Shown piece by piece: positions 14,690 through 60,428 of a stretch of DNA of 64,000 bases. The position numbers and the translations under genes were made by a program. Numbering within the stretch: the stretch's first letter is position 1; each line of letters starts with the position of its first letter. The notes below the pieces were generated by a model. That model made no database searches and was not told the origin of the DNA. It saw nothing but the letters and a program-made list of their open reading frames with translations. Source of the DNA: an uncultured Bacteroidia bacterium (GTDB taxonomy: Bacteria; Bacteroidota; Bacteroidia; Bacteroidales; UBA932); NCBI GenBank assembly GCA_902789245.1, contig CADAND010000003.1, positions 62,001 through 126,000 of the forward strand, in the 5' to 3' direction.

Positions 14690-14697
14690 CAAAGATA
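14690..14697 (-). promoter_or_regulatory. tRNA-Gly promoter with CARYCC discriminator
   Basis: The minus strand reads TTTG (14717-14720), 19 nt, TATCTTTG, then CAATCCC. The same arrangement occurs at the rpsL, rplC and tRNA-Leu promoters. Confidence 0.75.
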
Positions 14698-14751
14698 GAC
14701 ACATTTTTTGAATCGCCAAAATTTTTTTACGTTTTTTCGCATGCGTTTTTG

Positions 14752-14782
14752 CTGACAATTTGTCAGTGGCTCAACATTTGAG
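14752..14782. promoter_or_regulatory. Two adjacent palindromes before clpB, possible operators
   Basis: CTGACAATTTGTCAG (14752-14766, 7+1+7, perfect) is followed after 3 nt by CTCAACATTTGAG (14770-14782, 5+3+5, perfect). Both lie 40-70 nt upstream of the clpB start in an otherwise A/T-rich leader. They are candidates for a heat- or stress-responsive repressor site. No consensus -7 box was seen here apart from TACGTTTT at 14728-14735. Confidence 0.45.
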
Positions 14783-14822
14783 CGCTGTCCTCCCAGACCC
14801 TCTAATGGGCCGACGATAAAAT

Positions 14823-16877
14823 ATGGAGAACAGCAAGTACGAATTCTTAAGCAAGTACGCCGTGGACCTCAATGAGGCTGCGGCTAAAGGAAAGCTCGAC
14901 CCGGTCATCGGCCGCGACGAGGAAATCCGTCGCGTGCTGCAGATCCTGAGTCGAAGGACCAAGAACAACCCGATCCTGGTCGGCGAACCGGGTGTCGGCA
15001 AGACCGCCATCTCGGAAGGAATTGCCACCAAGATCGTCAACGGGCAGGTGCCCGAGAACCTCAAGAGCCGCAAGGTCTTCTCCCTGGACATGGGCGCGCT
15101 GATCGCAGGCGCCAAGTACCAGGGCGAGTTCGAGGAGCGTCTCAAAGGCGTCGTCAAGGAAGTCGTGGACAGCGACGGAGAGATCATCCTTTTCATCGAC
15201 GAGATCCACACGCTGGTGGGCGCAGGCCGCTCGTCCGGCGCCATGGACGCCTCCAACATCCTGAAGCCGGCGCTCGCGCGCGGCGAGCTGCGCACCATCG
15301 GCTCGACCACCTTGGACGAGTACCAGAAATATTTCGAGCAGGACAAGGCCCTGGAGCGCCGTTTCCAGAAAGTCATGGTGGACGAGCCCTCGCCCGCCGA
15401 GAGCATCGCCATCCTGCGTGGCCTGAAGGAGAAATACGAGAACCATCACCGCGTGAGCATCGAGGACGACGCGCTCATCGCCGCCGTCAACCTCAGCCAC
15501 CGCTACATCAACAACCGATTCCTGCCGGACAAGGCCATTGACCTCGTGGACGAGGCAGCCTCGAAGCTGCGTCTGGAGATGAACTCCGTCCCGGAGCCGA
15601 TCGACGTGCTGGACAGCAAGATCCGCCAGCTGCAGATCGAGAAGGAGGCCGTCAAGCGCGAGGGTGTGACCCTCAAGTCGGAGAAGATCGACGAAGAGCT
15701 CAAGGCCGCGAAGGCCGAGCGCGACGCCCTGGCTGCCCGCTGGAACGACGAGAAGAGCATCGTCACGGAGCTGAACAACACGCGCCAGCAGATTGAGGAC
15801 TACAAGCGCGAGGCCTCCATCGCCGAGCGCAGCGGCGACTACGGCCGCGTGGCCGAGATCCGCTACGGCAAGCTCGCCGAGGCGCAGAAGCGCATCGAGG
15901 AACTCTCCGCCAGGCAGGCCGCCATCAAGGACCCGATCATCACGGAGGCCGTCACGCCCGAGGACATCGCCGAGGTCGTGGCCCGCTGGACCGGCATCCC
16001 GGTGGCCCGGATGATGGAGAGTGAGAAAGAGAAGCTCCTGCGCATGGAGAGCGAGCTGCACAAGCGCGTCGTCGGCCAGGACAAGGCCATCGCGGCCGTG
16101 TCCGACGCCGTGCGCCGCAGCCGCGCCGGCCTGTCCAACGAGCACCGGCCCATCGGCTCCTTCCTCTTCCTGGGCACCACGGGCGTGGGCAAGACCGAGC
16201 TCGCGAAGGCGCTCGCGGAGTTCCTCTTCAACGACGAGTCCATGATGACGCGTATCGACATGAGCGAGTACCAGGAGAGCCATACCGTCAGCCGCCTGAT
16301 CGGCGCGCCCCCGGGATACGTCGGCTACGACGAAGGCGGTCAGCTGACCGAAGCCGTGCGGCGCAAACCCTACTCCGTGGTCCTGCTGGACGAGATCGAG
16401 AAGGCGCACCCGGACGTGTTCAACATCCTGCTCCAGGTCCTGGACGACGGCCGTCTGACCGACAACAAGGGCCGGACGGTGGACTTCAAGAACACCATCC
16501 TGATCATGACCTCCAACCTCAAGGAGGAAGAGCTGCGCCTGCGCATGCGGCCTGAGTTCCTGAACCGTATCGATGAGATCGTGGTCTTCGACGCACTGAC
16601 CCCGGACGACATCCGCCAGATCGTGCGCATCCAGATGGAGATCCTGCGCAGGAAACTCGAAGACGAGAATGTGGCCCTCAGCTTCACCCAGGCCTTCGAG
16701 GACGACATGGTGGAGAACGGTTACGATCCGGTCTACGGAGCCCGTCCCGTCAAGCGGCTGATCCAGCGCGAGCTGGTGAACCGGCTCGCCCGCGAGATCC
16801 TGGAGGGCAAGGTCCACAAGGATTCCGCCATCGAGGTAGACTGTGTCGACGGACAGACGGTCCTGCGGAATAGGTAA
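14823..16877 (+). CDS. clpB: ClpB-type AAA+ disaggregase lacking the N domain
   Basis: The protein has 684 residues against about 860 for typical ClpB. It starts directly at NBD1 ([20 protein letters not shown]; Walker A GEPGVGKT at 54-61), keeps a coiled-coil M domain (about 270-385), which distinguishes ClpB from ClpA/C, and NBD2 ([28 protein letters not shown], Walker [13 protein letters not shown]). The roughly 150-residue Clp_N domain is missing, and no remnant is seen upstream. A segment of about 25 residues usually found between TSN and [10 protein letters not shown] in NBD2 is also absent ([20 protein letters not shown]). It would work with DnaK in protein disaggregation. The ATG at 14823 is the first in frame after the palindromic leader. 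Confidence 0.9.
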
Positions 16878-16917
16878 AATAAAAGGAGGTGCAGATTCCT
16901 GCACCTCCTTTTATTTT
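16876..16917. terminator. Bidirectional terminator between clpB and secG
   Basis: A perfect 19-bp stem (AAAATAAAAGGAGGTGCAG and its complement) has a 4-nt loop. The A/T-rich ends give a U-tract on both strands, serving convergent clpB and the secG operon. Confidence 0.92.
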
Positions 16918-16931
16918 GCGTCGCGCTCGGA

Positions 16932-17267
16932 TTACTCCGTCGGAGCGTCCTGCTGGATCGGGGCGGACGGGAACTCGGGCTGGGCGTCCGTAGCCACGTT
17001 CTCAATCTGGTCGGTCACATCGATCGCGGTACCGTTGGTTCCGGTGGTGAAGGTGGAGACGATGGACACGGCGAGGATGAAAGTGACAAGGCCCCAGGTG
17101 ATCTTCTCGAGGGCGTCGGCTGTCTGGCGGACACCGAAAGTCTGGTTGCCGGCCACGAAGTTGCTGGCCAGACCCTCACCCTTGCCATTCTGGAGCAGCA
17201 CCACGATGATGAGCAGGAAGGCGGCGATGACGATCAGCACAGTCAGGATAACAAACAATGCGTTCAT
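16932..17267 (-). CDS. secG: Preprotein translocase subunit SecG
   Basis: The protein has 111 residues with two membrane helices (about 4-23, VILTVLIVIAAFLLIIVVLL, and about 58-75, WGLVTFILAVSIVSTF). The conserved stretch between them, LLQNGKGEGLASNFV, is characteristic of SecG. The acidic, Pro-rich C-terminal tail is typical of this phylum. SecG assists SecYE; secY is at 51918. It is the last gene of the lptE-TPR-secG group, starting 2 nt after the TPR gene. Confidence 0.93.
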   Translation of the reverse strand: MNALFVILTVLIVIAAFLLIIVVLLQNGKGEGLASNFVAGNQTFGVRQTADALEKITWGLVTFILAVSIVSTFTTGTNGTAIDVTDQIENVATDAQPEFPSAPIQQDAPTE

Positions 17268-21422: not shown

Positions 21423-21463
21423 ACTGTTTTAAGCCAATATTTTGCGTTTTACGGATTTTTCCG

Positions 21464-21471
21464 TATATTTG
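21464..21471 (+). promoter_or_regulatory. Promoter of the rpsL-rpsG-fusA-rpsJ operon
   Basis: TTTG (21441-21444), 19 nt, TATATTTG, then CAGCCCCC. The C-rich stretch lies between the -7 box and the expected start, where it would act as a GC-rich discriminator. Confidence 0.85.
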
Positions 21472-21472
21472 C

Positions 21473-21497
21473 AGCCCCCAAAAACTGGGGGCTTTTT
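21473..21497 (+). terminator. Terminator-like hairpin at the very 5' end of the rpsL leader
   Basis: AGCCCCC / GGGGGCT with a 7-nt A-rich loop is followed by TTTTT. It has the form of an intrinsic terminator but lies only 2-26 nt after the -7 box, so it is either a leader hairpin or attenuator, or part of the upstream unit's 3' end. Confidence 0.6.
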
Positions 21498-21522: not shown

Positions 21523-21894
21523 ATGCCAACAATTCAACAATTGGTTCGCAAAGGACGCGAGGTTATCGAGGTCAAGTCGAAATCTCGTGCGTTGGATGCT
21601 TGTCCTCAGAAGCGTGGCGTATGCCTGAGAGTCTATACGACGACTCCCAAGAAGCCGAACTCCGCTATGCGTAAGGTCGCGCGTGTACGTCTCACGAATT
21701 CTAAAGAGGTCAATGCCTACATTCCGGGCGAGGGACACAACCTGCAGGAGCACTCCATCGTGCTCGTGCGCGGTGGCCGTGTCAAGGACCTCCCTGGTGT
21801 ACGTTACCACATCCTCCGCGGTGCTTTGGATACTGCCGGCGTGGAAGGACGGACCCAGTCCCGTTCGCTCTACGGCGCCAAGAGGCCGAAGTAA
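21523..21894 (+). CDS. rpsL: 30S ribosomal protein S12
   Basis: The 123-residue protein is of normal length. Typical S12 stretches are [32 protein letters not shown] with the decoding-centre KKPNSAMRK loop, and [16 protein letters not shown]. The lysines of both loops are wild type, so no streptomycin-resistance substitution is evident at the common positions ([13 protein letters not shown]). It is the first gene of the str operon after a 45-50-nt leader. Confidence 0.98.
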
Positions 21895-32585: not shown

Positions 32586-32616
32586 TTTGTAATTTGAGAA
32601 ATTTGTTGTATCTTTG
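32586..32616 (+). promoter_or_regulatory. Promoter of the rplC-rpsC operon
   Basis: TTTG (32586-32589), 19 nt, TATCTTTG (32609-32616), then CAGCCCGC. It has the same form as the rpsL and tRNA promoters, 60 nt before rplC. Confidence 0.85.
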
Positions 32617-32676
32617 CAGCCCGCTAAAATGCGCGGAAACTTATAAAGTATTTATAAACAATTAATTAACAAACCA

Positions 32677-33303
32677 ATGCCTGGATTAATTGGAAAGAAA
32701 ATCGGAATGACTTCCGTTTTCGGTGCCGACGGTAAGAATATACCGTGCACCGTTATCGAGGCTGGTCCGTGCGTCGTTACGCAGCTGCGTACTCTTGAAA
32801 AAGATGGCTATGAGGCCGTGCAGCTTGCCTATGGCGAAACCACCGAAAAGCACACCAGCGCGCCCCTGATGGGGCACTTCAAGAAGGCAGGTGTCACCCC
32901 CAAGCGCAAGCTGGTCGAGTTCAAGGCCGACTTCGAGGGTGAGCTGGCCCTCGGCACCACGTTCACCGTGGCCGACATCTTCACCGAGGATGTCAAGTAC
33001 GTGGACGTGATTGGTACCTCCAAAGGTAAGGGTTTCCAGGGTGTTGTGCACCGTCATCACTTCGCCGGCGTCGGCGGACAGACCCACGGCCAGCACAACC
33101 GTCTGCGTCACCCCGGTTCCATGGGTGCATCGTCCTGGCCGTCCCGCGTCCTTCCCGGAATGCGTATGGCCGGTCACATGGGCAACGAGCGCGTGAAGGT
33201 CGAGAACCTCGAAGTGCTCAAAGTGCTCCCTGAGAACAATCTTCTCGTTGTCAAGGGCTCCGTCCCCGGGGCCAAGGGTTCTTATGTAATTGTGGAGGCT
33301 TAG
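32677..33303 (+). CDS. rplC: 50S ribosomal protein L3
   Basis: The 208-residue L3 begins [20 protein letters not shown] and includes the conserved loop [20 protein letters not shown] that reaches the peptidyl-transferase centre. It is the first gene of this operon fragment; rpsJ, its normal upstream neighbour, is 7.8 kb away. Confidence 0.97.
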
Positions 33304-36559: not shown

Positions 36560-36585
36560 TTAATTGAGATTAATCAATTTATTGC

Positions 36586-36593
36586 TATATTTG
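36586..36593 (+). promoter_or_regulatory. -7 box TATATTTG of the thioredoxin-lipoprotein/uvrC/pnuC operon
   Basis: A perfect box 27 nt after rpsC. It is followed at once by a strong hairpin, and the first gene starts 62 nt later. Confidence 0.65.
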
Positions 36594-36623
36594 ATGCCGG
36601 TTCCGGGATTCGGAACCGGCATC
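36593..36623 (+). terminator. Perfect 12-bp hairpin overlapping the new promoter
   Basis: GATGCCGGTTCC / GGAACCGGCATC with a 7-nt loop is followed by TTTAG. It probably ends the rpsC transcript, and the same hairpin would then be the very 5' end of the next mRNA. Confidence 0.65.
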
Positions 36624-36655
36624 TTTAGTAGTGTATTATAATAAATGAGAAAAAG

Positions 36656-37534: not shown

Positions 37535-39317
37535 GGAGAAAATATCTCTTTTACCGCATTCCCCGGGTGTCTATCGATATTATGACGCCGCGGGGAATGT
37601 GATCTATGTAGGCAAGGCCAAGGACCTGGCCAAGCGTGTCGCGCAGTATTTCGTGGACCCGGAACGGCTCACGGTCAAGACGCGCCTGCTGGTGTCGAGG
37701 ATTGCGGACCTGCAGTACTCCGTGGTGGACACGGAGGCGGACGCGCTGCTGCTGGAGAACAACCTCATCAAGCAGTACAAGCCGCGCTACAACATCCTGC
37801 TCAAGGACTCCAAGACCTATCCCTGGATCTGCGTGACCGCGGACGAATTCCCCAAGGTGTTCCTGACGCGGCGCGTGGTGAAGAACGGATCCCGCTACTA
37901 CGGGCCCTACAGCTCGGTCATGCATGCCCGGGCGCTGCTGGAGTTCTTCCGCGAGACCTATCCGCTCCGCTCCTGCAATCTCAAGATCAACTCCGACGCC
38001 ATTCTGCGCGGCAAGTTCCGCCCCTGCCTCGACTTCCATATCGGACGTTGCAAAGGCTGTTGCATCGGGGCTGTGTCCCGCGAGGAGTACGGCGGCTGGA
38101 TCGACGAGATCGAGCGCCAGCTCTCCGGCGGGGTGAACGGCATCATCCGGGACTACAAGGCGCGGATGACGGCCGCTGCGGACGCGCTCGACTTCGAGTC
38201 CGCGCAGCTTTACAAACAGCGCATCGATGTCCTGCAGCAGCATTACGCCAAGAGCATCATCACGGCGGCCGGCGACCGGGACGTGGACGTCTTCGCCCTC
38301 GAGGTCGACGGGGCCGAGGCCTTCGGCAGCTTCCTGCGCATCCGCGGCGGCGCCATCATCCAGTCGCTGAACCTCGGTTTCAAGATGAATATCGAGGAGG
38401 ACCGCGCGGCGGTGCTGAGCGAGTTCATCGCCGAGATCGCCTCCAAGTTCGGCTCGCTCCGGGGCGAGGTCATCGTCCCCTTCCTGCCCGATGTGGAGCT
38501 GGAAGGCGTCGAGTTCCGCATCCCCGTGCGCGGCGACAAGCTGGCACTGCTGGAGCTCGGCGCCAAGAATGCCCGGGAGTACCGGGCCAATTCGCTCAAA
38601 CAGCGCGAGCACACCAATCCCGACGAGTACCGCGCCGCGGTGCTCGAGGAGCTGCGCAAGGCCCTCGGGATGAAGGTCCCGCCCGTGCACATGGAGTGCT
38701 TCGACAATTCCAACATCCAGGGCACGAACCCCGTGGCTTCGTGCGTGGTGTTCCGCAATGCGGAGCCTTCCAAGAAGGATTACCGCAAATTCAAGATCAA
38801 GACCGTGGTGGGCGCGAACGACTACGCCTCCATGAAGGAGGTCGTGAACCGCCGCTACGCGCGCATGCTGGAAGAAGCTCCCGACGACCTGCCGCAGCTG
38901 GTGGTGATCGACGGCGGCAAGGGCCAGCTCGATTTCGCCTACCAGGCGCTCTGTGAGCTGGGTATCCAGGACCGCCTGACGGTCGTGGGTCTGGCGAAGC
39001 GCCTCGAAGAGGTGATCCGGGTGGGGGACCCGTATCCCCTGTTCCTTGACCGCAATTCTCAGGCCCTCAAGGTGTTGCAGCGCATCCGCGACGAAGCGCA
39101 CCGTTTCGGCATCACTTTCCATCGCTCGCTGCGCAGCAAGGCGGCCATCCAGTCGGCGCTTCGTGCCATCCCGGGTGTGGGAGAGCAGACGGAGCAGCGC
39201 CTGCTGATGCACTTCGGCAGCGTGGCCCGCATCGCGGCCGCTCCGGAGGCGGACCTGGCCGCGCTGGTGGGGCCCGCCCTGGCAAAACGTATCCATGAAC
39301 AACTCAACCATGAATAA
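37524..39317 (+). CDS. uvrC: Excinuclease ABC subunit C
   Basis: The protein has a GIY-YIG nuclease (GVYRYYDAAGNVIYVGKAKD), a Cys cluster (CRPCLDFHIGRCKGCC-like), a UVR motif, an RNase-H-like nuclease domain (HMECFDNSNIQGTNPVASCV, VIDGGKGQLD) and C-terminal HhH motifs (AIPGVGEQTEQRLLMHFGSV). It incises DNA on both sides of a lesion. No ATG lies at a fitting place: TTG at 37524 (597 residues) overlaps the upstream gene by 11 nt and fits the family start; an ATG at 37479 would overlap by 56 nt. Confidence 0.94.
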   Translation: MDVREKISLLPHSPGVYRYYDAAGNVIYVGKAKDLAKRVAQYFVDPERLTVKTRLLVSRIADLQYSVVDTEADALLLENNLIKQYKPRYNILLKDSKTYPWICVTADEFPKVFLTRRVVKNGSRYYGPYSSVMHARALLEFFRETYPLRSCNLKINSDAILRGKFRPCLDFHIGRCKGCCIGAVSREEYGGWIDEIERQLSGGVNGIIRDYKARMTAAADALDFESAQLYKQRIDVLQQHYAKSIITAAGDRDVDVFALEVDGAEAFGSFLRIRGGAIIQSLNLGFKMNIEEDRAAVLSEFIAEIASKFGSLRGEVIVPFLPDVELEGVEFRIPVRGDKLALLELGAKNAREYRANSLKQREHTNPDEYRAAVLEELRKALGMKVPPVHMECFDNSNIQGTNPVASCVVFRNAEPSKKDYRKFKIKTVVGANDYASMKEVVNRRYARMLEEAPDDLPQLVVIDGGKGQLDFAYQALCELGIQDRLTVVGLAKRLEEVIRVGDPYPLFLDRNSQALKVLQRIRDEAHRFGITFHRSLRSKAAIQSALRAIPGVGEQTEQRLLMHFGSVARIAAAPEADLAALVGPALAKRIHEQLNHE

Positions 39318-40053
39318 ATCCGATCTTTTCAACAAAATCTTCAACGCCTTCATCCTGATTGGGATGGCAGTCGTGACGATCCTGGTGACCGGAATCAAGC
39401 TGCAGGGGGCGGAAAGCGGACGGGCGCTGCTCATCATTGCGGCTGTCGGATCCCTGGCCGGTGTGCTGGCCAACGTCCTGTCGGCCAACGGCCGCATCCT
39501 CACTTTCCTGTTCGGTCTCATCGACGTGACGGTCTATGGCGCCATGTGCCTGGCGGGAGCCAAATACGGCAACGCCGCGCTGCACCTGCTCTACTTCCTG
39601 CCGATGCAGGTCATCGGCTTCGTGCAGTGGAAGAAGCGGGGCGCAGGCGAGGGGAAGCAGGTCCACGCCCGTCGGCTGGACGGCCGGAAATGGCTGCTGT
39701 ACGGGTCCATCTTCCTGGTCGGCCTGGTGATTGCCTATTTCGTCCTTTGTGCCCTGGACAAGACGGAAGCGGCCGGAGTGGTGCGCTGGCTGGTCCTGAC
39801 GGACGCCCTGTCGATGATGTGCAATGTCCTGGGACAGTACCTCATGTCCACGGCCTACATGGAGCAGTGGCTCTTCTGGATCGGGGTCAACATCGCTTCC
39901 GTCGTGATGTGGGTGCTGACGCTCCGGCAGACCCCTGATTCGTCATATGCGCTCATCTATGTTGTGAAATACAGCTTTTATTTGTTAAACTCGCTCAATG
40001 GCCTGCGTATCTGGCTGGCCCTCAGCAAGGAGGGGGGAAGTTTGGAAAATTGA
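39295..40053 (+). CDS. pnuC: PnuC-family nicotinamide riboside transporter
   Basis: The 252-residue membrane protein has about seven helices. The pattern fits PnuC: a conserved substrate-binding region LLYFLPMQVIGFVQWKKRG and LSMMCNVLGQYLMSTAYMEQ with WLFWIGVNIASVVMW. Such transporters take up NAD precursors by facilitated diffusion. The start overlaps the end of uvrC by 23 nt; an alternative ATG at 39310 is equally possible. No kinase or NAD-linked partner gene is nearby. Confidence 0.88.
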   Translation: MNNSTMNKSDLFNKIFNAFILIGMAVVTILVTGIKLQGAESGRALLIIAAVGSLAGVLANVLSANGRILTFLFGLIDVTVYGAMCLAGAKYGNAALHLLYFLPMQVIGFVQWKKRGAGEGKQVHARRLDGRKWLLYGSIFLVGLVIAYFVLCALDKTEAAGVVRWLVLTDALSMMCNVLGQYLMSTAYMEQWLFWIGVNIASVVMWVLTLRQTPDSSYALIYVVKYSFYLLNSLNGLRIWLALSKEGGSLEN

Positions 40054-40072
40054 ATTTTTTTCCGTTACTTTG
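40041..40072 (+). promoter_or_regulatory. Probable acpP promoter
   Basis: TTTG (40041-40044), 20 nt, TTACTTTG (40065-40072, seven of eight positions), then a leader of about 50 nt to acpP. The -33 element lies in the last codons of pnuC. Confidence 0.5.
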
Positions 40073-40128
40073 TCCCCGATATTATGATACGAAAGTACTA
40101 ACAAAAACCTTTATATCTTATTAACATC

Positions 40129-40371
40129 ATGGAATACGCAGAAATCGTAGAAAAAGTGAAAGCGATCATCGTCGACAAGCTCGGCGTGGAGCCTTCCGAG
40201 GTGACCGAGACCGCTAATTTCACCAATGATCTGGGCGCTGACTCCCTTGACACCGTGGAGCTTCTTATGGAGTTCGAGAAGGTGTTCGGCATCAAGATTC
40301 CCGATGAGGAGACCAGCACGATCGCCACGGTCAAGGACGCTTGCGACAAAGTCGCCGAGAAACTTGCCTAA
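40129..40371 (+). CDS. acpP: Acyl carrier protein
   Basis: The 80-residue acidic protein carries the phosphopantetheine attachment site [15 protein letters not shown] (Ser in DSLD). It carries acyl chains in fatty-acid synthesis. In many Bacteroidota acpP is followed directly by fabF; here a terminator follows and fabF is not in the window. Confidence 0.96.
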
Positions 40372-40394
40372 TCCGGTTTGAAGATCCGAAAACA

Positions 40395-40426
40395 AAACCG
40401 ACCTGCATCCGCAGGCCGGTTTCTTT
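40395..40426 (+). terminator. Intrinsic terminator of acpP
   Basis: AAACCGaCCTGC / GCAGGcCGGTTT with a 4-nt loop is followed by CTTTTT. Confidence 0.9.
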
Positions 40427-40437
40427 TTCTATATAGT

Positions 40438-40462
40438 CATTCCGGGCTTGACCCGGAATCTC
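40438..40462 (+). repeat. REP-like palindrome ATTCCGGG/CCCGGAAT, copy 2
   Basis: Same core as 25178-25203. Its last bases overlap the stop codon of the convergent DUF4270 gene. Confidence 0.75.
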
Positions 40463-42110
40463 AGTTCTCCTGGTTCGGCAGCGCGAAGACCAGCTTCAGC
40501 GTCGGGGCGGAGTTGGACTCCGGTCCGTTCAGCGCGGCGCGGTAGAAGCGGTCGGTATCCAGCTTGATGCTCTTGGACGTGGAGGTGTGGGATACGCTGG
40601 CCTGCTGGGCCATCATGGCGTAGGTCAGGTAGTTGTTGTAGTAGCTGCCGTATCCGCCGTACCCGCCGCCATAGCCGCCGTATCCACCGTAACCGTATCC
40701 GCCGTACATGCCGTTATAGTAGCTGGAGTAGGCGAGGTAGTTGAGCATTTCCTGCTGCTCTTTGCTTGCGGTGCTGACCGTGGTCACGGTCTCCTGGGCC
40801 ATGACGAGCAGCCAGATGTCGTAGTTGCCGGAGAGCAGATTCTTGGTTGAGCTCTTGTCGGTGGCGCTCTCGTCAACCTTGAGGATTTCCTGCATGTGGT
40901 AGGTGATGTCCGGGGCGTAGCGCATCAGCGACCGGTCCACGTCGCCCTGGTTCTCGTTGCTGGAGCTGGAGTCGGTCAGGCCCATGTAGGCTGTGGACTC
41001 GTCGTTGACGAGCCGGCAGGTGGGCGAGAGCCGGTAGGGCCAGTAGGACATATCCTTGTAGTCCTCCGGGAAGACGAAGGGGAAGATCAGCGAAGCCTTG
41101 TTGATGACGGCGTCCTTGGGATTGCCGCCCACCTCAATGATGGCCTTTTCCACCTGATGCTTCAGGCTCAGGGCGGAGATGACGGGCTTGAGTCCGCCGC
41201 CGCCCTCGATGGTGATTTCCCGTTGCGCGTCGCCTGCCCGGTCGCGGGTTTCCTGGCCGGTGTGGTTGAGGGCATACTGCGGGAATGTGCCGGTGTAGGC
41301 CTCGAACAGGGAATCAAGCGGGAAGAAGTCGGCCGCGCCGTACCAGAAGAGTACCGTCGTGTCCTTGCGGATGCCGTCGAACTCTGCGGAATAGTTCAGG
41401 GTGGCGACATTGCCCATGATGTACCCGTAGTCTTTGTCGTAGGCCATCTGGACGTCCAGCATGTCGATGCGGCCGCCGTCCTCGTGCGGGATTTCGGTCT
41501 CCATGTAGATGCCCGGGAACTTGGCGAGATAGGTCTCGATATCCTTGAGGTCGTCCTGGGTGATCTGGAGGTATTTCTTGCCGAATTCTTCGGTGAATTC
41601 AAAAGTCAGGGAATCGGTGCCGTTGATGACCGGCGTTCCTTTGGCGATGCGCTTGGTGCTGTGCTGGATAGGACGGTTGATGTCGTAATCGACCTCCGGA
41701 TCCAGCGCGTGCTCCAGGGCGTACACGTTTACGCGCTGCAGGATATTCTCCTGCGTGGGGTCGAGGAAGCTGGTGGTGTCGCACGCGGCGGCAAAGCGGA
41801 AGCGCTTGAAGACCGGGTTCTTGCCCATGTCGAGCTTGTCCTGGAACAGCGGAATGAGCGTCACGGCGCTGGAGCGGGTGGTCAGGCCGTACTCCGGCTC
41901 GCGGATGGCGCCGATGGTGATGCGGGCGTCGGAGTAGCCGGACAGGTTGTCCGCCATCTTCGTGGTGATGCCCTCGAGGGGGACCTCCACCGTGTGGAAG
42001 GTGTAGGTCTCCACGGTGGGAACGAGATTCCCGCCGAGGGTGCTGTCGGTTTCTATGCAGGAGTAGCAGCAGAACAGGACTGCCGCCAGCGCAAGGAGTC
42101 TGGTTTTCAT
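40461..42110 (-). CDS. DUF4270 lipoprotein with Gly/Tyr-rich tract
   Basis: Taken from ATG 42110, the protein has 549 residues, with lipobox FCCYSC followed by IETDSTLGGNLVP, the standard start of Bacteroidota DUF4270 proteins. Function is unknown; they are secreted and beta-rich. Residues about 460-493 form a low-complexity run built of GGY/GYG (MYGGYGYGGYGGYGGG, GGYGSYYNNY), unlike the rest of the protein. The gene follows the GT5-N gene after 1 nt, an arrangement seen in many Bacteroidales. Confidence 0.88.
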   Translation of the reverse strand: MKTRLLALAAVLFCCYSCIETDSTLGGNLVPTVETYTFHTVEVPLEGITTKMADNLSGYSDARITIGAIREPEYGLTTRSSAVTLIPLFQDKLDMGKNPVFKRFRFAAACDTTSFLDPTQENILQRVNVYALEHALDPEVDYDINRPIQHSTKRIAKGTPVINGTDSLTFEFTEEFGKKYLQITQDDLKDIETYLAKFPGIYMETEIPHEDGGRIDMLDVQMAYDKDYGYIMGNVATLNYSAEFDGIRKDTTVLFWYGAADFFPLDSLFEAYTGTFPQYALNHTGQETRDRAGDAQREITIEGGGGLKPVISALSLKHQVEKAIIEVGGNPKDAVINKASLIFPFVFPEDYKDMSYWPYRLSPTCRLVNDESTAYMGLTDSSSSNENQGDVDRSLMRYAPDITYHMQEILKVDESATDKSSTKNLLSGNYDIWLLVMAQETVTTVSTASKEQQEMLNYLAYSSYYNGMYGGYGYGGYGGYGGGYGGYGSYYNNYLTYAMMAQQASVSHTSTSKSIKLDTDRFYRAALNGPESNSAPTLKLVFALPNQEN

Positions 42111-42111
42111 C

Positions 42112-42930
42112 TTAAAGTTCATCGTAAAAACTGCAGTACGAATCGATGTAGCTGCCATCCTCCATGGCCTTGCGGTCGTAGGGAAGGATCGGGAGTCCGA
42201 GCGACTTGCAGTGGTTCACAATCTCCGGCTCGACCTTGTCCGCGGCGAGGATGACGCCATCGGCGTACTGGACGGCCAATTTAGCAAGATTTATGCCAGT
42301 GGGGTCCTCGAGAAGCGACACGTCTTCGTGGGTGAGACCGCCGAAGCAGGCCTTCTCCGCGAAGGCCGGATGGAACGGCTCTTTCGGAGTGTCGTCATAG
42401 ACCGACAGGACAATCTTGCTGGAGGAGAAAATGGGATCGTCTTTATAAGCTTTCTTGAGATAGGCGGGGAGGAGGTGGGAGATCCAGCCCTGGCAGTGGA
42501 TGACATCCGGCGCCCAGCGCAGCTTCTTGACCGTCTCGAGCACGCCGCGCGCGAAGAAGATGGTCCGCTCGTCATTGTCCTCGAAGGCCTTGCCGGAGGC
42601 GTCGCAGAAGGGCTGCTTGCGGCGGAAGTAGTCTTCGTTGTCGATGAAGTAAACCTGGATGCGCGCGGAGGAGATGGAGGCGACCTTGATGATCAGCGGC
42701 CGGTCCACTTCCGCGATGATGATATTCATGCCCGACAGGCGGATGACTTCGTGGAGCTGGTTCTTGCGCTCGTTGATGCAGCCGTAACGCGGCATGAATG
42801 AGCGGATTTCGCGCTTGCGCTCCTGCGTGCCCTGCGGGAGGTACCGTCCGACATGTGCGATATCAGACTCCGGAAGATACGGATAGATCTCCGAGTTGAC
42901 GAAAAGGATTTTCTGCTTAATATCGCTCAT
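42112..42930 (-). CDS. Stand-alone GT5 (glycogen/starch synthase) N-terminal domain protein
   Basis: The ATG at 42930 gives 272 residues (MSDIKQKILFVNSEIYPYLP). It matches the N-terminal Rossmann domain of GT5 glycogen synthase (ESDIAHVGRYLPQGTQERKR, MPRYGCINERKNQLHEVIRL, WAPDVIHCQGWISHLLPAYL). The C-terminal half with the nucleotide-sugar site is absent, so synthase activity is doubtful; the usual KxGGL motif is not present at the N-terminus. I recall this short form as conserved across Bacteroidota. A GTG at 42936 lies in the -7 box and is not used. Confidence 0.85.
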   Translation of the reverse strand: MSDIKQKILFVNSEIYPYLPESDIAHVGRYLPQGTQERKREIRSFMPRYGCINERKNQLHEVIRLSGMNIIIAEVDRPLIIKVASISSARIQVYFIDNEDYFRRKQPFCDASGKAFEDNDERTIFFARGVLETVKKLRWAPDVIHCQGWISHLLPAYLKKAYKDDPIFSSSKIVLSVYDDTPKEPFHPAFAEKACFGGLTHEDVSLLEDPTGINLAKLAVQYADGVILAADKVEPEIVNHCKSLGLPILPYDRKAMEDGSYIDSYCSFYDEL

Positions 42931-42935
42931 ATCCA

Positions 42936-42943
42936 CAAAGATA
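42936..42943 (-). promoter_or_regulatory. -7 box TATCTTTG of the GT5-N/DUF4270 operon
   Basis: It ends 5 nt before the ATG at 42930 and so predicts a nearly leaderless mRNA. It is divergent from the ftsX promoter. Confidence 0.65.
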
Positions 42944-42974
42944 AGAATTTTTTTCCAATTATATGTCTTTTCAT

Positions 42975-42982
42975 TATCTTTG
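42975..42982 (+). promoter_or_regulatory. -7 box TATCTTTG of the ftsX operon
   Basis: A perfect box, 19 nt before ftsX, in the divergent gap with the GT5-N gene. Confidence 0.7.
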
Positions 42983-43001
42983 AGGTCTAAATTGGTGGAA
43001 T

Positions 43002-43880
43002 ATGGCCCGACAGGAGAAAAAGATGTTGCGGAAGCGTATCGTGAATGCTTACCTCTCCAGCGTGATCAGCATCAGCCTTGTGCTCCTGCTGACCGGGGTT
43101 GCCGCCCTGCTCGTGATCAATGCGAGCGGCGTGACGAAATACCTCAAAGAAAACATGCGCATCTCGGTCCTGCTGCGGGACGACGCCACCGAAAAGCAGG
43201 CTCGCGAGTGGGCCGGGGCGCAGGACGCCCAGCCCTATGTCCACTCCACGCGTGTCATCACGCGCGAAGAAGGCGCCGAGGAGCTGAAGCAGATGCTGGG
43301 CGAGGATTTCCTGGACGTCTTCGAGACCTCTCCCGTTCCCCTCTCGGTCGACGTGACGCTGAATGCGGACTATGTCCAGAAAGACAGCCTGGCGCGCGTG
43401 ACCAAGGCCCTGGCCGTCTCTCCGCTCGTGGACGAGGTGGTGGCGCAGCAGACGATGGTGGAGGCGCTGACGACCAACCTGACGCGCATTTCCATCGTGC
43501 TGGGCGTGTTCATCCTGCTGCTGCTGTTCATCTCGTTTGTCCTCATCAACAATACCGTGCGCGTGAGTGTGTTCGCGCGCCGTTTCACGATCCACACGAT
43601 GAAGCTGGTCGGGGCCACCCGCGGTTTCATCCGCGCTCCCTTCGTGCGGGCGGCGGTGCTGCAGGGGCTGGTCTCCTCGGTGCTGGCCGCAGGCATGCTC
43701 TGGGCTCTGCTGGCCGCTCTGCGCCGCTCCTTCCCGGAGCTGGCCTCCATCGTGGACCTGCGGCAGGTACTGGTCGTCTGCGGCATTGTTGTTGCGTGTG
43801 GCATCCTGCTTTGCGTGATTTCCACCTGGATGGTGGTGAACCGGCTGGTCGCCACGTCCAAGGATGACCTATATTATTGA
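43002..43880 (+). CDS. ftsX: Cell-division protein FtsX
   Basis: The 292-residue protein has an N-terminal membrane helix (about 18-40), a periplasmic domain, and three C-terminal helices (about 165-190, 215-245, 255-280) in the ABC-permease FtsX fold (VSVFARRFTIHTMKLVGATR, FIRAPFVRAAVLQGLVSSVL). With the ATPase FtsE it controls septal peptidoglycan hydrolases. ftsE is not in the window. It heads an operon with DUF3098, uppP and lpxH, all envelope genes. Confidence 0.92.
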   Translation: MARQEKKMLRKRIVNAYLSSVISISLVLLLTGVAALLVINASGVTKYLKENMRISVLLRDDATEKQAREWAGAQDAQPYVHSTRVITREEGAEELKQMLGEDFLDVFETSPVPLSVDVTLNADYVQKDSLARVTKALAVSPLVDEVVAQQTMVEALTTNLTRISIVLGVFILLLLFISFVLINNTVRVSVFARRFTIHTMKLVGATRGFIRAPFVRAAVLQGLVSSVLAAGMLWALLAALRRSFPELASIVDLRQVLVVCGIVVACGILLCVISTWMVVNRLVATSKDDLYY

Positions 43881-43883
43881 GAA

Positions 43884-44120
43884 ATGGAAAAAAAAGATAA
43901 GATGGCCCTCAATGCGAAAGGGCTGAAACTGATGCTCGCGGGCCTGATTGTGATGGTGGCCGGCTACATCCTGATGATGGGTGGCGGGTCGGATGATCCG
44001 CAGGTCTTCAACGAGGCCATGTTCAATTTCCGGCGGCTTGTGGCCGCCCCCGTGGTGATCGTTGCGGGCATTGTCGTGGAAGTGGTCGCCCTCGTGGGCG
44101 CGTACAGGAAAAAGCAGTAA
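43884..44120 (+). CDS. DUF3098 small membrane protein
   Basis: The 78-residue protein has two membrane helices (about 14-32, LKLMLAGLIVMVAGYILMMG, and 52-72, APVVIVAGIVVEVVALVGAY) and a short conserved loop (DPQVFNEAMFNFRRL). It lies between ftsX (3 nt) and uppP (6 nt), as in other Bacteroidales. The function is unknown; the context suggests the cell envelope or division. Confidence 0.88.
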   Translation: MEKKDKMALNAKGLKLMLAGLIVMVAGYILMMGGGSDDPQVFNEAMFNFRRLVAAPVVIVAGIVVEVVALVGAYRKKQ

Positions 44121-44126
44121 ACGGGT

Positions 44127-44930
44127 ATGGAGTGGTTTGAAGCCTTGATTCTCGGCCTGGTCCAGGGCCTGACCGAGTTCCTTCCGGTGAGCAGCAGCGG
44201 CCACCTGGCCATTGGCAAGGCCCTGCTGGGCGTGGAGCCCTCGGGGGACCTGATCTTCGAGGTCGCGGTCCATGCCGCTACGGTCCTTGCGACCATCGTC
44301 GTCTTCCGGAAAGAGATCTGGAAGCTGCTCTGCGGCCTGTTCAAGTTCAAGTATAACGATGAGACGGACTATATCGCCAAGATTGTCGTGTCGATGATCC
44401 CGGTGTTCGTGGTCGGCATGTTCTTCAAGGACCAGGTGGAGGCCGCCTTCAATTCGATGCGGGTGGTGGGCGTGTGCCTGCTGGTCACGGCTCTGCTTCT
44501 GACCTTGTCCGACTGGCTTTCCGTACGCGTGCATGCGGCTGTGAAGGAGAGCCGCAACGGCATCAATTTCTGGCAAGCCTTCGTCGTGGGCCTCGGCCAG
44601 GCCTGTGCGGTGCTGCCCGGTCTGTCCCGTTCCGGCACGACCATCTCGACCGGCCTGCTGAGCGGCGTGAAGCGTGAGAGCATGGCGCAATTCTCCTTCC
44701 TGATGGTGCTGGTGCCCATTCTCGGGGAGACGTTCCTGGACGTGGTCGACGGCGACATGGCCGCCTCCGCAGTCGGGGCGCTGCCCCTGCTGATCGGCTT
44801 CGTGGCCGCCTTCTTCTCAGGCCTCTTTGCCTGCCGGGTGATGATCGCCCTGGTGCGCAGGGCGCAGCTCAAGTGGTTCGGCCTCTATTGCGCGCTGGCC
44901 GGTCTGTTGGTCCTGATCTTCCTGGCCTGA
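44127..44930 (+). CDS. uppP: Undecaprenyl-diphosphatase UppP (BacA)
   Basis: The 267-residue polytopic enzyme has both catalytic regions: GLVQGLTEFLPVSSSGHLAI near the N-terminus and LPGLSRSGTTISTGLLSGVK in the middle. It recycles undecaprenyl pyrophosphate, the lipid carrier for wall and O-antigen synthesis, and confers bacitracin tolerance when abundant. Its TGA stop shares a base with the next ATG (TGATG). Confidence 0.96.
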   Translation: MEWFEALILGLVQGLTEFLPVSSSGHLAIGKALLGVEPSGDLIFEVAVHAATVLATIVVFRKEIWKLLCGLFKFKYNDETDYIAKIVVSMIPVFVVGMFFKDQVEAAFNSMRVVGVCLLVTALLLTLSDWLSVRVHAAVKESRNGINFWQAFVVGLGQACAVLPGLSRSGTTISTGLLSGVKRESMAQFSFLMVLVPILGETFLDVVDGDMAASAVGALPLLIGFVAAFFSGLFACRVMIALVRRAQLKWFGLYCALAGLLVLIFLA

Positions 44931-45682
44931 TGGCGGAGCGGGACCTTATATATTTCGTGGCCGACGTCCACCTGGGCCGTCAGGCGGAGAACCGGGCGGA
45001 GGTGGAGGAGCGTTTCCTTGCTTTCTTGAAGGGCCTGCCTGCGGCGTCGATGTCCCGGCTGTATCTGCTGGGCGACATCTGGGACTTCTGGTACGAGTAC
45101 CACGACGTGGTGCCGCGAGAGGGATTCCGCGTGGTGGCGGAGCTGGTCCGCCTGATGGACGAGGGCGTGGAGGTGTGGTTCTGCCCCGGCAACCATGACA
45201 TCTGGACCTTTTCCTTCTTCAAGGACCTGGGGATCCATTATTTCGAGCAGCCGCTCTTCGTGCGGCTGGGCGACAAGGATTTCTGCCTGGGCCACGGCGA
45301 CCTGCTGGGCGGCGCGACGCGGGGCTATTCGTTCCTGATCAAGGTTTTCCACAACCACTTCCTCCAGCGGCTCTTCGCGGCGATTCATCCGACGCTGGCC
45401 TTCCGCTGGGCGCGCGCCTGGTCCGGGTCCAGCCGGAAGAAGCATCCGTACCACAAGTTCCGTGGGGAGGAAGAGTTTCTGTATCAGTTCGCTGCCGGTG
45501 CGGAGCAGGAGCGCCACGTGGACTATTTCGTGTTCGGCCACTACCACGATTCCGTGGACATGACGCTCCCCGGGGGCGCGAGGCTGATTGTGCTGAAGGA
45601 CTGGTCGCAGGGGGGAATGCCCTGCGCGGTCTTTAACGGTTCTTCTTTCGAACTTCGCTCTCCAGCGTCTCCCGCTGAATGA
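44930..45682 (+). CDS. lpxH: UDP-2,3-diacylglucosamine pyrophosphatase (LpxH-like)
   Basis: The 250-residue calcineurin-like phosphoesterase has all metal-binding motifs: FVADVHLG, LLGDIWDFWYEY, CPGNHDIW, LGHGDLLGG and FGHYHDSVDM. In LPS synthesis LpxH converts UDP-2,3-diacylglucosamine to lipid X. The start shares one base with the uppP stop. The final 50 nt overlap the convergent DUF4294 gene tail to tail, which is unusual. Confidence 0.92.
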   Translation: MAERDLIYFVADVHLGRQAENRAEVEERFLAFLKGLPAASMSRLYLLGDIWDFWYEYHDVVPREGFRVVAELVRLMDEGVEVWFCPGNHDIWTFSFFKDLGIHYFEQPLFVRLGDKDFCLGHGDLLGGATRGYSFLIKVFHNHFLQRLFAAIHPTLAFRWARAWSGSSRKKHPYHKFRGEEEFLYQFAAGAEQERHVDYFVFGHYHDSVDMTLPGGARLIVLKDWSQGGMPCAVFNGSSFELRSPASPAE

Positions 45683-46373
45683 CGGTTTTGGCGGGACGCT
45701 CCATGAAGATGGAGTAGTAGAAGGCGTCCCACTGCCCGGAGTCCCAGATTTTGCATAGCTCTTCGATCTTGGCGTCTTCGCCCTTGGTGGGGTCGTAGCG
45801 CGTCTTGAGGTTCTGGGAGAAGAGCTTGGCTACGAGCTGCCAGAAGTTGGCGGTCAAGCCGTTTTCGTAGGTCTTGATGATGGTGTACGCGCTCATCCCG
45901 CATTCGCGGTCGATCAGGCGCATCATGACCAGTCCCTGTGTCACCGTCATGTGGCGGATGTCCTGCTCGAAGAGGCGGAAGAGCTCTTTTTCGACGTCGT
46001 TGATGTAACGGGTGCGTTCGGAGCGCCTGGTCGCGTCGGCGGCGATGGTGCTGTCCACCTGGGCAATCATTTTCCGGCCCACAAGGGCGTAGGGATAGAC
46101 TTTGTTGAAGTTGTAGACCAGCTTGTAGTACTTGCGCCAGTCGCCATCCCGCATCCTTCTTCCCTTCGGGAAAATCCACACCGGGTCGAGGGTTTCCATG
46201 AAGACGGTGTCGCCCTTCTCGTCCAGCTCGAAGTACATCGGCGTGCCGGTCACGGGCCGGCGCGACTGCTGCCGGGCCTCACGCAGGGTCTCCCGCGCGG
46301 TCTCGGACTGTGCCCGCGCCGGCAGCGCGGCCGCCGCCAGCAGCAGAATCAGTATGAATCCCTTGTACTTCAT
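45633..46373 (-). CDS. DUF4294 exported protein
   Basis: The ATG at 46373 gives 246 residues; a longer frame to 46391 would run through the -7 box. A signal peptide (cut near ALPARAQ) precedes a DUF4294 domain (about 65-205: VYPYALVGRKMIAQVDSTIA, LVMMRLIDRECGMSAYTIIK, NGLTANFWQLVAKLFSQNLK). The family is restricted to Bacteroidota and has no known role. It overlaps lpxH convergently by 50 nt, so the two 3' ends would form antisense RNA. Confidence 0.85.
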   Translation of the reverse strand: MKYKGFILILLLAAAALPARAQSETARETLREARQQSRRPVTGTPMYFELDEKGDTVFMETLDPVWIFPKGRRMRDGDWRKYYKLVYNFNKVYPYALVGRKMIAQVDSTIAADATRRSERTRYINDVEKELFRLFEQDIRHMTVTQGLVMMRLIDRECGMSAYTIIKTYENGLTANFWQLVAKLFSQNLKTRYDPTKGEDAKIEELCKIWDSGQWDAFYYSIFMERPAKTVIQRETLESEVRKKNR

Positions 46374-46379
46374 TGTCCG

Positions 46380-46387
46380 CAAAGTTA
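46380..46387 (-). promoter_or_regulatory. -7 box TAACTTTG of the DUF4294 gene
   Basis: It ends 6 nt before the ATG at 46373, predicting a nearly leaderless transcript and fixing the start codon. Confidence 0.65.
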
Positions 46388-46399
46388 GCAAAAATCCCG

Positions 46400-46640
46400 C
46401 CAGCCACGCCCCGTCCGCAAGCCGTTGTGGGCTGTTTGCCGGATACCTGCGACTCTCGGCAGGGGCCCGCGTGCGCAGACGCTATCCCGCAGCGCGACAG
46501 GCAGTGCTGCCGGCAAACCCGTGGCCGCCCGTGGCCTCGTGAACGGGAGGGGCCCGCGCCGCAAGGCGTGGGAGGGATGAGCGAAGCGAAGGTTTGCGGC
46601 AGCAGCTGCCTGCGCGCAAGGGGCGTTGCGAAGGGGCGGT
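46400..46640. repeat. GC-rich intergenic region with inverted repeats, no gene
   Basis: GTTTGCCGG (46434-46442) and CCGGCAAAC (46510-46518) are perfect inverted arms about 76 nt apart. Further GC-rich dyads fill the rest (for example GGGGCCCGCG twice), and GTTTGCGGCAGC near 46590 recalls the start of the 185-nt element. Reading frames through it have no credible protein. It lies directly upstream of the rplP promoter, the second ribosomal-operon breakpoint. Confidence 0.6.
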
Positions 46641-46781
46641 TGACCGCGGTCGAAAATGTGCGAAAAAAGTTTTCGACAGAGTTTGTAAGTGATTGAAGAA
46701 TGTGGAGTTGACCTACGAGATTTTGTGTCGAAAAAGTTTGAAATATTTTGCAAAACATGATGCTAATTCAATATTTTTTAC

Positions 46782-46789
46782 TAAATTTG
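46782..46789 (+). promoter_or_regulatory. Promoter of the rplP-rplQ operon
   Basis: TAAATTTG is followed by CAGTCCCA, the same discriminator as at rpsL, rplC and two tRNAs. No TTTG is present 19 nt upstream, unlike the others. The leader to rplP is about 80 nt. Confidence 0.75.
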
Positions 46790-46872
46790 CAGTCCCAAAA
46801 ACTGGCCTCTAACCGCGTAAGAAGCTGATTTTGAGGATTTTAAGCGATAATTATTTTAAAAGTAATACTGAG

Positions 46873-47292
46873 ATGTTACAACCTAAGAGAACAAAGTTTA
46901 GAAGGGAACAGAAGAACCGCATGAAGGGCAACGCCCAGCGCGGCAACCAGCTCGCGTTCGGTTCCTTCGGTATCAAGACCCTTGAGAATTGCTGGCTGAC
47001 CGCCCAGCAGATCGAAGCTGCCCGTCAGGCTATCTCCCGTCGGATGAACCGTGAGGGTCAGATCTGGATCCGTGTCTTCCCTGTGAAGCCGATCACCAAG
47101 AAGCCGCTCGATACCCGTATGGGTAAAGGTAAGGGCGATCCGTACGCATTCGTCGCTCCGATCACCCCGGGCCGCATCATCTTCGAAGCCGAGGGCGTTT
47201 CCCTCGAGACCGCCAAAGAGGCCATGCGCCTTGGCGCCAACAAGCTCCCGATCGCGACCAAGTTCGTCGTCCGCCGGGATTATGTCGAATAA
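46873..47292 (+). CDS. rplP: 50S ribosomal protein L16
   Basis: The start at 46873 ([20 protein letters not shown]) gives the normal 139 residues; a longer frame to 46831 adds unrelated residues. L16 contacts the A-site tRNA ([34 protein letters not shown]). It is now the first gene of the second half of the operon. Confidence 0.97.
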
Positions 47293-59432: not shown

Positions 59433-60360
59433 CCAGGTCTTTGATTATCACCTTGCCGATTTTCTTGATCAGGACAAAGTGGATGATGCCTTTCTCGGCT
59501 TTCTTGTCTTTCCAAAGGGCGGCTTCCAGTTCCGTTTCCGGGCAGGGGAGCTCCGTCGGGAGCCCGCAGGCCTGCAGGTCCTTGCGGATTTTCTCCGCGA
59601 GACCGGCCTTGCACAGGCCCAGGCGCTCGGACAGGAGGGCTGCCTGCACCATGCCCACGGCGACGGCCTCGCCGTGCGTCATCGGCTCGGCGGTTTCGTG
59701 CGTGTGCTGGTACCACTCGATGGCGTGGGCGTAGGTGTGTCCGAGGTTCAGGTAGCGACGGATATTCTCTTCGTAGGGATCCTGCTCCACGATCTTGCGT
59801 TTGACGGCAGCGGCCGCCTCGATGAGCGGCGCGAGCGCGGCGAAGTCGATTTTCGGCTCGGAGAGCACTTTGACGGCCTTCTCGTAATGGTCGCCCTTGT
59901 TGTCGATGATGAAGGTCTTGAGCATTTCGGCGGCGCCGGAGCGCAGCTCGCGCGCGGGGAGCGTCTGCAGGACCTCGGGCAGGATGCGGGTGTAGATGGG
60001 GAATTTCGTGACCCCGATCATGTTTTTGTAGCTGTCCAGGTTCACGCCCGTCTTGCCGCCCACGCCCGCGTCCACCTGGCTGAGCAGGGTGGTGGGGTAG
60101 TTGGCATAGCGCACACCGCGCTTGTAGATGCTGGCGGCGAAGCCCACCAGGTCGGTGGTCACGCCGCCGCCCACGGCCCAGACGATGGCGTCGCGGTTCG
60201 CGCCCTGCGCGAGCAGCCAGCGGCAGATGTCCAGCACGGTGTCCATCGTCTTGTGCGCTTCGTCGGCGGTGATGGCCAGCGACGGTCGCCCCTCGGCCAG
60301 TTTCAGCGCGAAAGGCTCGATGTTGCGGTCGTAGATGACGTAAATGCTCTTATTCTCCAT
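59407..60360 (-). CDS. aroB: 3-Dehydroquinate synthase
   Basis: The ATG at 60360 gives 317 residues, somewhat shorter than the usual 350 or so; longer frames read into a tRNA promoter region. NAD-binding VWAVGGGVTTDLVGFAASIY, the family signature PTTLLSQVDAGVGGKTGVNL, and the zinc ligands in LNLGHTYAHAIEW and MTHGEAVAVGM are all present. It makes 3-dehydroquinate, the substrate of the dehydratase half of the fused protein downstream, so aroB and the fusion supply steps 2, 3 and 6 of the shikimate pathway. Confidence 0.95.
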   Translation of the reverse strand: MENKSIYVIYDRNIEPFALKLAEGRPSLAITADEAHKTMDTVLDICRWLLAQGANRDAIVWAVGGGVTTDLVGFAASIYKRGVRYANYPTTLLSQVDAGVGGKTGVNLDSYKNMIGVTKFPIYTRILPEVLQTLPARELRSGAAEMLKTFIIDNKGDHYEKAVKVLSEPKIDFAALAPLIEAAAAVKRKIVEQDPYEENIRRYLNLGHTYAHAIEWYQHTHETAEPMTHGEAVAVGMVQAALLSERLGLCKAGLAEKIRKDLQACGLPTELPCPETELEAALWKDKKAEKGIIHFVLIKKIGKVIIKDLDDLHQPAA

Positions 60361-60368
60361 ACGGGAAG

Positions 60369-60376
60369 CGAAGATA
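60369..60376 (-). promoter_or_regulatory. -7 box TATCTTCG of aroB
   Basis: Seven of eight consensus positions match, ending 8 nt before the aroB start. Confidence 0.45.
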
Positions 60377-60385
60377 CGGCAAAAA

Positions 60386-60416
60386 TTTGATAAATCGCGT
60401 TTTTTAAATACCTTTG
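60386..60416 (+). promoter_or_regulatory. tRNA-Leu promoter with CARYCC discriminator
   Basis: TTTG (60386-60389), 19 nt, TACCTTTG (60409-60416), then CAGTCCCT, with the tRNA starting 12 nt after the box. Confidence 0.85.
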
Positions 60417-60428
60417 CAGTCCCTACCA

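Follow-up and report, generated by a model that had tools for sequence, protein, structure and literature searches.

The nearest described model for the promoter element analyzed here is the GC-rich discriminator of Escherichia coli ribosomal RNA (rRNA) promoters (PMC9304144; this and the other cited papers are drawn on in excerpt). In Bacteroidetes, promoters of the primary sigma factor, sigma-ABfr, are built from a -33 TTTG and a -7 box, TAnnTTTG. The published consensus, in the excerpts, ends at TAnnTTTG or TANNTTTGY (PMC12632263, PMC6847099), and variants of TAnnTTTG with a possible regulatory meaning, SM1-SM3, are described for Flavobacterium psychrophilum (PMC9723704). Here we analyze a short sequence tag, predicted as CA(A/G)(C/T)CC (CARYCC), that directly follows the -7 box of five promoters in a 64,000-nucleotide (nt) stretch, hereafter the window, of contig CADAND010000003.1 from an uncultured member of the Bacteroidales (class Bacteroidia, UBA932). 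All tagged promoters use the sigma-ABfr -7 box and most of them also have the -33 TTTG; relative to the published consensus, the tag adds an extension, CA-N-Y-CCC, and a gene specificity.

With the E. coli rrn P1 and P2 promoters the tagged promoters share the stable-RNA class, a GC-rich stretch between the -10 or -7 box and the start, and an A-rich region upstream. In E. coli rrnB P2, which we take to be the promoter that reads TATTAT-GCACACCCC and starts with C, CCC lies 7-9 bp after the hexamer, at the same distance as in the tag. In contrast to E. coli rrn, the tag goes with other -7 and -33 boxes, is much more tightly conserved in sequence and is used at ribosomal-protein promoters too, in a genome where site 1 for guanosine tetraphosphate (ppGpp) is mostly not conserved and the DksA-like protein is divergent. 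The GTP-sensing rRNA promoters of Bacillus subtilis are alike in that a shared start letter would allow control by nucleotide pools (PMC9304144); however, the predicted start letter here is C, not G, and the tag spans -4 to +3.

No earlier report of the tag was found in the open-access literature among the matches listed, supplements excluded. We provisionally regard it as a stable-RNA promoter discriminator, in a variant for which we found no earlier report. A study of strong promoters in F. hibernum reportedly includes an rplC promoter, and a Bacteroides thetaiotaomicron study is said to have dealt with the 16S promoter. Eukaryotic terminal oligopyrimidine (TOP) mRNAs, translation-machinery transcripts that start with C followed by pyrimidines, offer an analogy only: TOP acts in translation, and the tag also precedes transfer RNA (tRNA) and rRNA genes.

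Tagged promoters in the window and its genome

A pattern scan of the window with TANNTTTGCARYCC returned five sites, at 14684-14697 on the minus strand and at 21464-21477, 32609-32622, 46782-46795 and 60409-60422 on the plus strand. The promoters and the genes that they lead are as follows.

14684..14720 (minus): tagged promoter of tRNA-Gly(gcc); TTTG 14717-14720, N19, TATCTTTG 14690-14697, CAATCC 14684-14689
14586..14661 (minus): tRNA-Gly(gcc)
21441..21477 (plus): tagged promoter of rpsL; TTTG 21441-21444, N19, TATATTTG 21464-21471, CAGCCC 21472-21477
21523..21894 (plus): rpsL, ribosomal protein S12 (Pfam PF00164)
32586..32622 (plus): tagged promoter of rplC; TTTG 32586-32589, N19, TATCTTTG 32609-32616, CAGCCC 32617-32622
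32677..33303 (plus): rplC, ribosomal protein L3 (Pfam PF00297)
46782..46795 (plus): tagged promoter of rplP; TAAATTTG and CAGTCC, without TTTG at N17-21
46873..47292 (plus): rplP, ribosomal protein L16 (Pfam PF00252), first gene of the downstream half of a split S10 operon
60386..60422 (plus): tagged promoter of tRNA-Leu(caa); TTTG 60386-60389, N19, TACCTTTG 60409-60416, CAGTCC 60417-60422
60429..60514 (plus): tRNA-Leu(caa)

In 100 dinucleotide shuffles of the window, TANNTTTGCARYCC matched 0.03 times on average and once at most. The -7 boxes themselves (TANNTTTG) number 28 against 10.4 expected, and CARYCC follows none of the remaining 23. The original prediction, which had named CARYCC promoters before these five genes and had seen it at none of about fifteen other boxes, is thus confirmed for the window. 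At the predicted RNA start of rpsL, positions 21474-21497 hold a perfect stem of GCCCCC and GGGGGC that encloses a 7-nt loop; five T's come next, and the whole looks like a mini-terminator or attenuator.

The genome that holds the window (2.28 Mb, 28 contigs) was scanned with the reversed pattern as control. TANNTTTGCARYCC has 30 matches against one for the control and is not equally common before genes unrelated to translation: 27 of the 30 sites lead tRNA, 16S rRNA or ribosomal-protein genes, comprising 20 tRNA genes or tRNA-led units, two 16S rRNA genes and the genes of S12, L3, L16, S6 and L19. The other three precede a YceD gene (yceD is often cotranscribed with rpmF), a lipoprotein-like open reading frame (ORF) and, judged by eye, an SdhC-like membrane protein, the last two without a Pfam match. 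A broader pattern, TANNTTTGNNNYCCC, matches 37 times against one in the control; 31 of these sites lead tRNA, rRNA or ribosomal-protein genes, now including 23S rRNA, L34 and L13, and the six exceptions are HU, the lipoprotein-like ORF, a glycosyltransferase, a CarbopepD_reg protein and two genes without a family match. The HU-family DNA-binding protein is preceded by CACTCCC, and the ORF that resembles succinate dehydrogenase cytochrome b by eye is preceded by CAGTCC. Two tagged promoters stand 116 nt from each other before one of the 16S genes, and a 23S gene located on a separate contig piece is led by a tagged promoter of its own.

For a promoter-based test, we collected promoters of the form TTTG-N17-21-TANNTTTG (110 in the genome, 15 in the reversed control) and read 100 distinct ones, some of them included as neighbors of tagged sites. 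NNNYCC is present in 28, of which 26 lead tRNA, rRNA or ribosomal-protein genes, the other two leading HU and an ORF without a family match. Only three of the 72 untagged promoters lead genes of this class (Fisher p = 1.8e-18), namely a tRNA-Ala with CGTCCGC, L25, and L31 with CGCCCG. A scanned ORF, many times without a family match, follows 64 of the untagged promoters, and the eight without an ORF were counted as non-ribosomal; dropping these gives 3/64. When the class is widened by elongation factor P (EF-P), an EF-G-like GTPase, RimP, MnmA and an isoleucyl-tRNA-type synthetase, the contrast is 26/28 versus 8/72 (p = 8e-15). The promoters of phosphoenolpyruvate (PEP) carboxykinase, pyruvate oxidoreductase and acetate kinase carry no tag. 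Thus, the enrichment before translation genes that the original prediction implied is borne out both by the scan of the genome and by gene class.

Promoters of tRNA genes were also chosen without reference to the tag. Infernal finds 43 tRNAs in the genome, and ARAGORN finds 45 tRNA or transfer-messenger RNA (tmRNA) genes on the stretches read, 32 of them with a -7 box at most 75 nt upstream. With the box at -12 to -5, these 32 promoters have C at -4 in 31 cases, A at -3 in 30, C or T at -1 in all 32, and C at +1, +2 and +3 in 30, 27 and 24; 26 carry NNNYCC. The 13 genes without a near box apparently lie behind another tRNA, behind a protein gene or in an rRNA spacer, or have their box farther away (129 nt for tRNA-Pro(tgg)).

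The consensus of the class in this genome reads TA-(T/C)-(C/A)-TTTG-C-A-N-(T/C)-C-C-C-(A/T)-(A/T), while the 71 untagged promoters that were profiled have a near-flat composition from -2 to +4. CARYCC is real and tied to its gene class, but is a narrow version of this consensus, and we replaced it by CANYCCC as the unit: promoters of the same class that CARYCC misses carry CATTCCC, CACTCCG, CCCTCCC or CGGTCCC. The original prediction had further noted TTTG exactly 19 nt upstream. This spacing is found in four of the five window promoters, rplP being the exception, and is enriched in the tagged class without being confined to it: N19 occurs in 21 of the 28 NNNYCC promoters and also in 26 of the 72 others (p = 7e-4), so that a strict N19 was rejected in favor of a bias. 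Among 43 tagged promoters, 27 have TTTG at N18-20 and 31 have TTG; the -33 element is thus not universal. The G+C fraction over -4 to +3 is 0.70 in the tagged class and 0.52 in the others. Between 25 and 45 nt upstream of the box, the tagged class is also richer in A, which resembles an UP element, in a comparison that required the -33 TTTG of the untagged set and not of the tagged one. The tag stands in one fixed register with the -7 box and is not palindromic, and many of the tRNA leaders measure no more than a few nt.

Spread and lineage variants of the tag

All 24 relatives from the same genus are enriched, with 15-36 sites each (controls 0-2), and 16 other Bacteroidales have 1-17 sites (controls 0-3), some of them not above control. 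In a phylum sample of 148 genomes scanned with TANNTTTGCANYCCC, at least one match was found in 32 of 36 other members of the class Bacteroidia, six of which have 13-21 (controls 0-1), and in 53 of 111 genomes of other classes, most of which have 0-2 and none more than 7 (controls 0-2). The suggestion of a phylum-wide signature therefore has to be narrowed: the exact motif is enriched in the class Bacteroidia, but in the other classes most genomes stay close to the control. In three richer genomes, G057, G112 and G166, where 47 of 48 sites were read, 19 boxes lead tRNAs, eight lead ribosomal-protein genes (S10, L34, S16, S8, L31 and L11 by Pfam; L3 and S1 by eye, without a Pfam match), one leads metG and four lead unrelated genes; 15 of the 47 sites lie at contig ends with no gene in reach, and cmscan of seven of nine stretches returned nothing.

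At the rpsL loci of 80 named Bacteroidota (Bacteroides, Tannerella, Flavobacterium, Aquimarina, Hymenobacter, Chitinophaga and many metagenome-assembled genomes), a box within 170 nt is present in every case. CARYCC follows 26 and NNNYCC 50 of these boxes, whereas among 115 other boxes of these loci the counts are 1 and 5. Position -4 is C in all 80 and +2 is C in 64; at +1, 71 have C, 7 have G, 2 have T and none has A. In the seven promoters with G at the predicted +1 (L201, L213, L217, L231, L242, L249 and L260, from Parabacteroides, Muribaculaceae and allies), mostly T's and not CC follow, as if the start letter had been switched.

Promoters of the same kind occur on viral contigs, where 44 stretches carry TTTG-N19-TANNTTTG-CANTCCC. 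Eighteen of these lie within 300 nt before a tRNA (L375, L377, L386, L389, L403 and others), and in 11 of the 18 it is a tRNA-Cys on near-identical contigs. Some 20 tRNA genes lie on one viral contig, L383, together with a GOLLD RNA and a match to permuted tmRNA; its tagged promoter is on the strand opposite to them.

The wording of the tag varies between lineages. We read tRNA promoters chosen without the tag in four other genomes (62 tRNA boxes, 103 other boxes): those of G139 mostly read CANYCCC, those of G124 CANYCGC, those of G026 CANCGC and similar, and those of G052 CACCACT or CACTCAC. A start with C throughout the class was rejected on the wordings of the last three. Pooled over the four genomes, CA-N-Y is present in 42 of the 62 tRNA boxes and in 7 of the 103 others (p = 7e-17), and the G+C fraction over -4 to +3 is 0.60 versus 0.35 (p = 8e-13). 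Since the wording varies while CA-N-Y and GC-richness are shared, CCC is the local form of a class-wide tag.

One tagged promoter goes along with a rearranged operon. In the window, the S10 operon is split between rpsC and rplP by about 10 kb of other genes (36560-46872), among them genes for a thioredoxin-like protein, UvrC, a nicotinamide mononucleotide (NMN) transporter and FtsX. All 15 readable loci of the genus, the window genome included, lack rpsC within 1450 nt upstream of rplP, and in all 15 a CANYCC box begins 53-99 nt before rplP; ten further genus genomes had no usable locus. Where rpsC does lie 65-213 nt upstream, as in 14 other Bacteroidales, no NNNYCC box was found within 250 nt of rplP, although one of the 14, G032, comes close with CAACCT; one genome had too little sequence. 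On the simplest reading, rplP would have acquired a tagged promoter upon losing its operon.

Predicted start, ppGpp machinery and possible readers

Start mapping in F. psychrophilum places TAnnTTTG at -12 to -5 (PMC9723704), and in F. johnsoniae 4 or 5 nt separate box and start in 241 of 434 candidate boxes (PMC6847099). If the spacing of these relatives is valid here, transcripts start on the C's of the tag, and those of tagged promoters in the window genus probably begin with C. Such promoters would be an unusual class, as starts in B. thetaiotaomicron are mostly purines (45% A, 41% G; PMC7366714). The predicted +1 is G in 1 of the 32 tRNA promoters here, in 7 of the 80 rpsL promoters and in 9 of 54 tRNA boxes elsewhere.

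The residues of the E. coli ppGpp sites (listed in PMC7676912) were compared in the window genome by pairwise alignment. Four of the five site-1 residues of beta-prime differ (R362N, R417K, K615T, I619Q) and D622 is kept, as is the site-2 residue N680. The search turned up a single DksA-family protein, which is divergent: it has L95F, K98N and R129V and only one of the four zinc cysteines, while R91 and K139 do align. Three RelA_SpoT-family regions are present. The omega subunit lacks the N-terminal MAR motif, which is part of ppGpp site 1. The direct ppGpp/DksA route is thus doubtful, site 1 being mostly not conserved; given the RelA/SpoT-family genes, ppGpp may still act indirectly, as in Bacillus via nucleotide pools (PMC9304144). 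In B. thetaiotaomicron, the BtModulome ties ppGpp to an extracytoplasmic-function (ECF) sigma factor, and ribosomal promoters are unmentioned in the excerpt (PMC12596196).

The tag is real, strongly specific and widespread in Bacteroidia. We think it rather likely that the tag belongs to the promoter itself and is not a separate operator: it would extend the primary-sigma -7 box in a fixed way, set off the stable-RNA and ribosomal-protein promoters of this class, and be read by RNA polymerase itself. RNA polymerase is favored as the reader by the fixed register with the box, by the use of the tag at rRNA, tRNA and mRNA promoters alike, by the shortness of the tRNA leaders, a few nt only, and by the absence of a palindrome. 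With the predicted start, the element reads TAnnTTTG-C(-4)-A(-3)-N(-2)-Y(-1)-C(+1)-C(+2)-C(+3) in the genus; other families usually keep CA-N-Y and continue with a different combination, mostly GC-rich. RNA polymerase would read the tag during promoter opening and start, the GC-rich stretch and C-rich start may give a short-lived open complex whose start depends on nucleotide supply, and ribosome-building promoters would then rise and fall together with growth. What the sequences show is the tag, its gene specificity, its register with the box, its conservation and its occurrence wherever rplP is separated from rpsC in the genus; its reading by RNA polymerase and growth-rate control are inferred. 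A more specific version, in which the level of cytidine triphosphate (CTP) as initiating nucleotide, and not ATP, GTP or RNA-polymerase-bound ppGpp, sets ribosome synthesis in the genus, with most rRNA, tRNA and ribosomal-protein transcripts starting 5'-CCC and other families having re-tuned their start letters, is put forward tentatively and is unlikely as it stands.

Several observations weigh against the favored reading. The tag also precedes HU, the lipoprotein-like ORF, the glycosyltransferase and a few other genes, and the promoters of L25, L31 and EF-P lack it. At least five of the seven positions from -4 to +3 are G or C in 20 of the 72 untagged promoters, and GC-richness as the whole signal was rejected for the window genome on this count. 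NNNYCC is missing from 30 of the 80 rpsL promoters and is found in only 7 of the 62 tRNA boxes of the four other genomes, being absent from two of these and rare in a third; this lineage variation is the main limit on the tag as a class-wide sequence. Finally, the start sites in the window organism are predictions, as is any response of expression to growth.

The main rival, which we regard as possible but not likely, is that the tag only optimizes opening and escape at very highly expressed genes and has no regulation of its own. Genes of the tagged class are among the most expressed in bacteria, and the A-richness upstream of their promoters fits a strength element; however, central-metabolism promoters are often strong in this phylum as well, and those of PEP carboxykinase, pyruvate oxidoreductase and acetate kinase lack the tag, as do several promoters of ribosomal proteins or factors. 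Control of the type known from E. coli rrn P1, where a GC-rich discriminator confers sensitivity to RNA-polymerase-bound ppGpp, was the idea behind the original prediction. The location of the tag in the discriminator and start region, its GC-richness and the gene class agree with it, and RelA_SpoT regions, a DksA-family protein, N680 and D622 are present; with site 1 changed at four of five residues, omega lacking MAR and the DksA-like protein divergent, we consider the direct route quite improbable.

A dedicated DNA-binding factor or an alternative sigma factor would account for the sharp gene-class specificity, but the tag, which is not palindromic, always accompanies the primary -7 box in one register, and from family to family its wording changes with position and CA-N-Y retained, which makes such a reader very unlikely. 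Least probable of all is a role in the RNA, where the 5' CCC would pair with a downstream GGG and form a stem that protects or attenuates the transcript. When the leaders of rpsL, rplC, rpsF, rplM and one 16S gene are folded, a short stem does take in the first CCC (or CC); those of rpmH, HU, rplS and yceD have no paired base there. Over 14 leaders, on average 1.86 of the first three bases are paired, versus 1.46 in shuffles, no convincing excess, and the 5' hairpin idea was rejected. Moreover, tRNA and rRNA leaders are processed off, and many tRNA leaders have only a few nt.

In the open-access literature searched, we found no explanation of how ribosome production is linked to growth in Bacteroidia, which are abundant in the gut. 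With the tag as a rule, ribosome-building promoters can be recognized in DNA sequence alone and told apart from about 70 others that use the primary sigma factor in the same genome. One tag shared by most tRNA and rRNA promoters and many ribosomal-protein promoters probably lets the cell tune ribosome production as one unit, which raises the possibility that Bacteroidia achieve growth-rate control without the ppGpp site 1 of E. coli. If true, control by CTP would be a bacterial counterpart of the TOP-like pyrimidine start.

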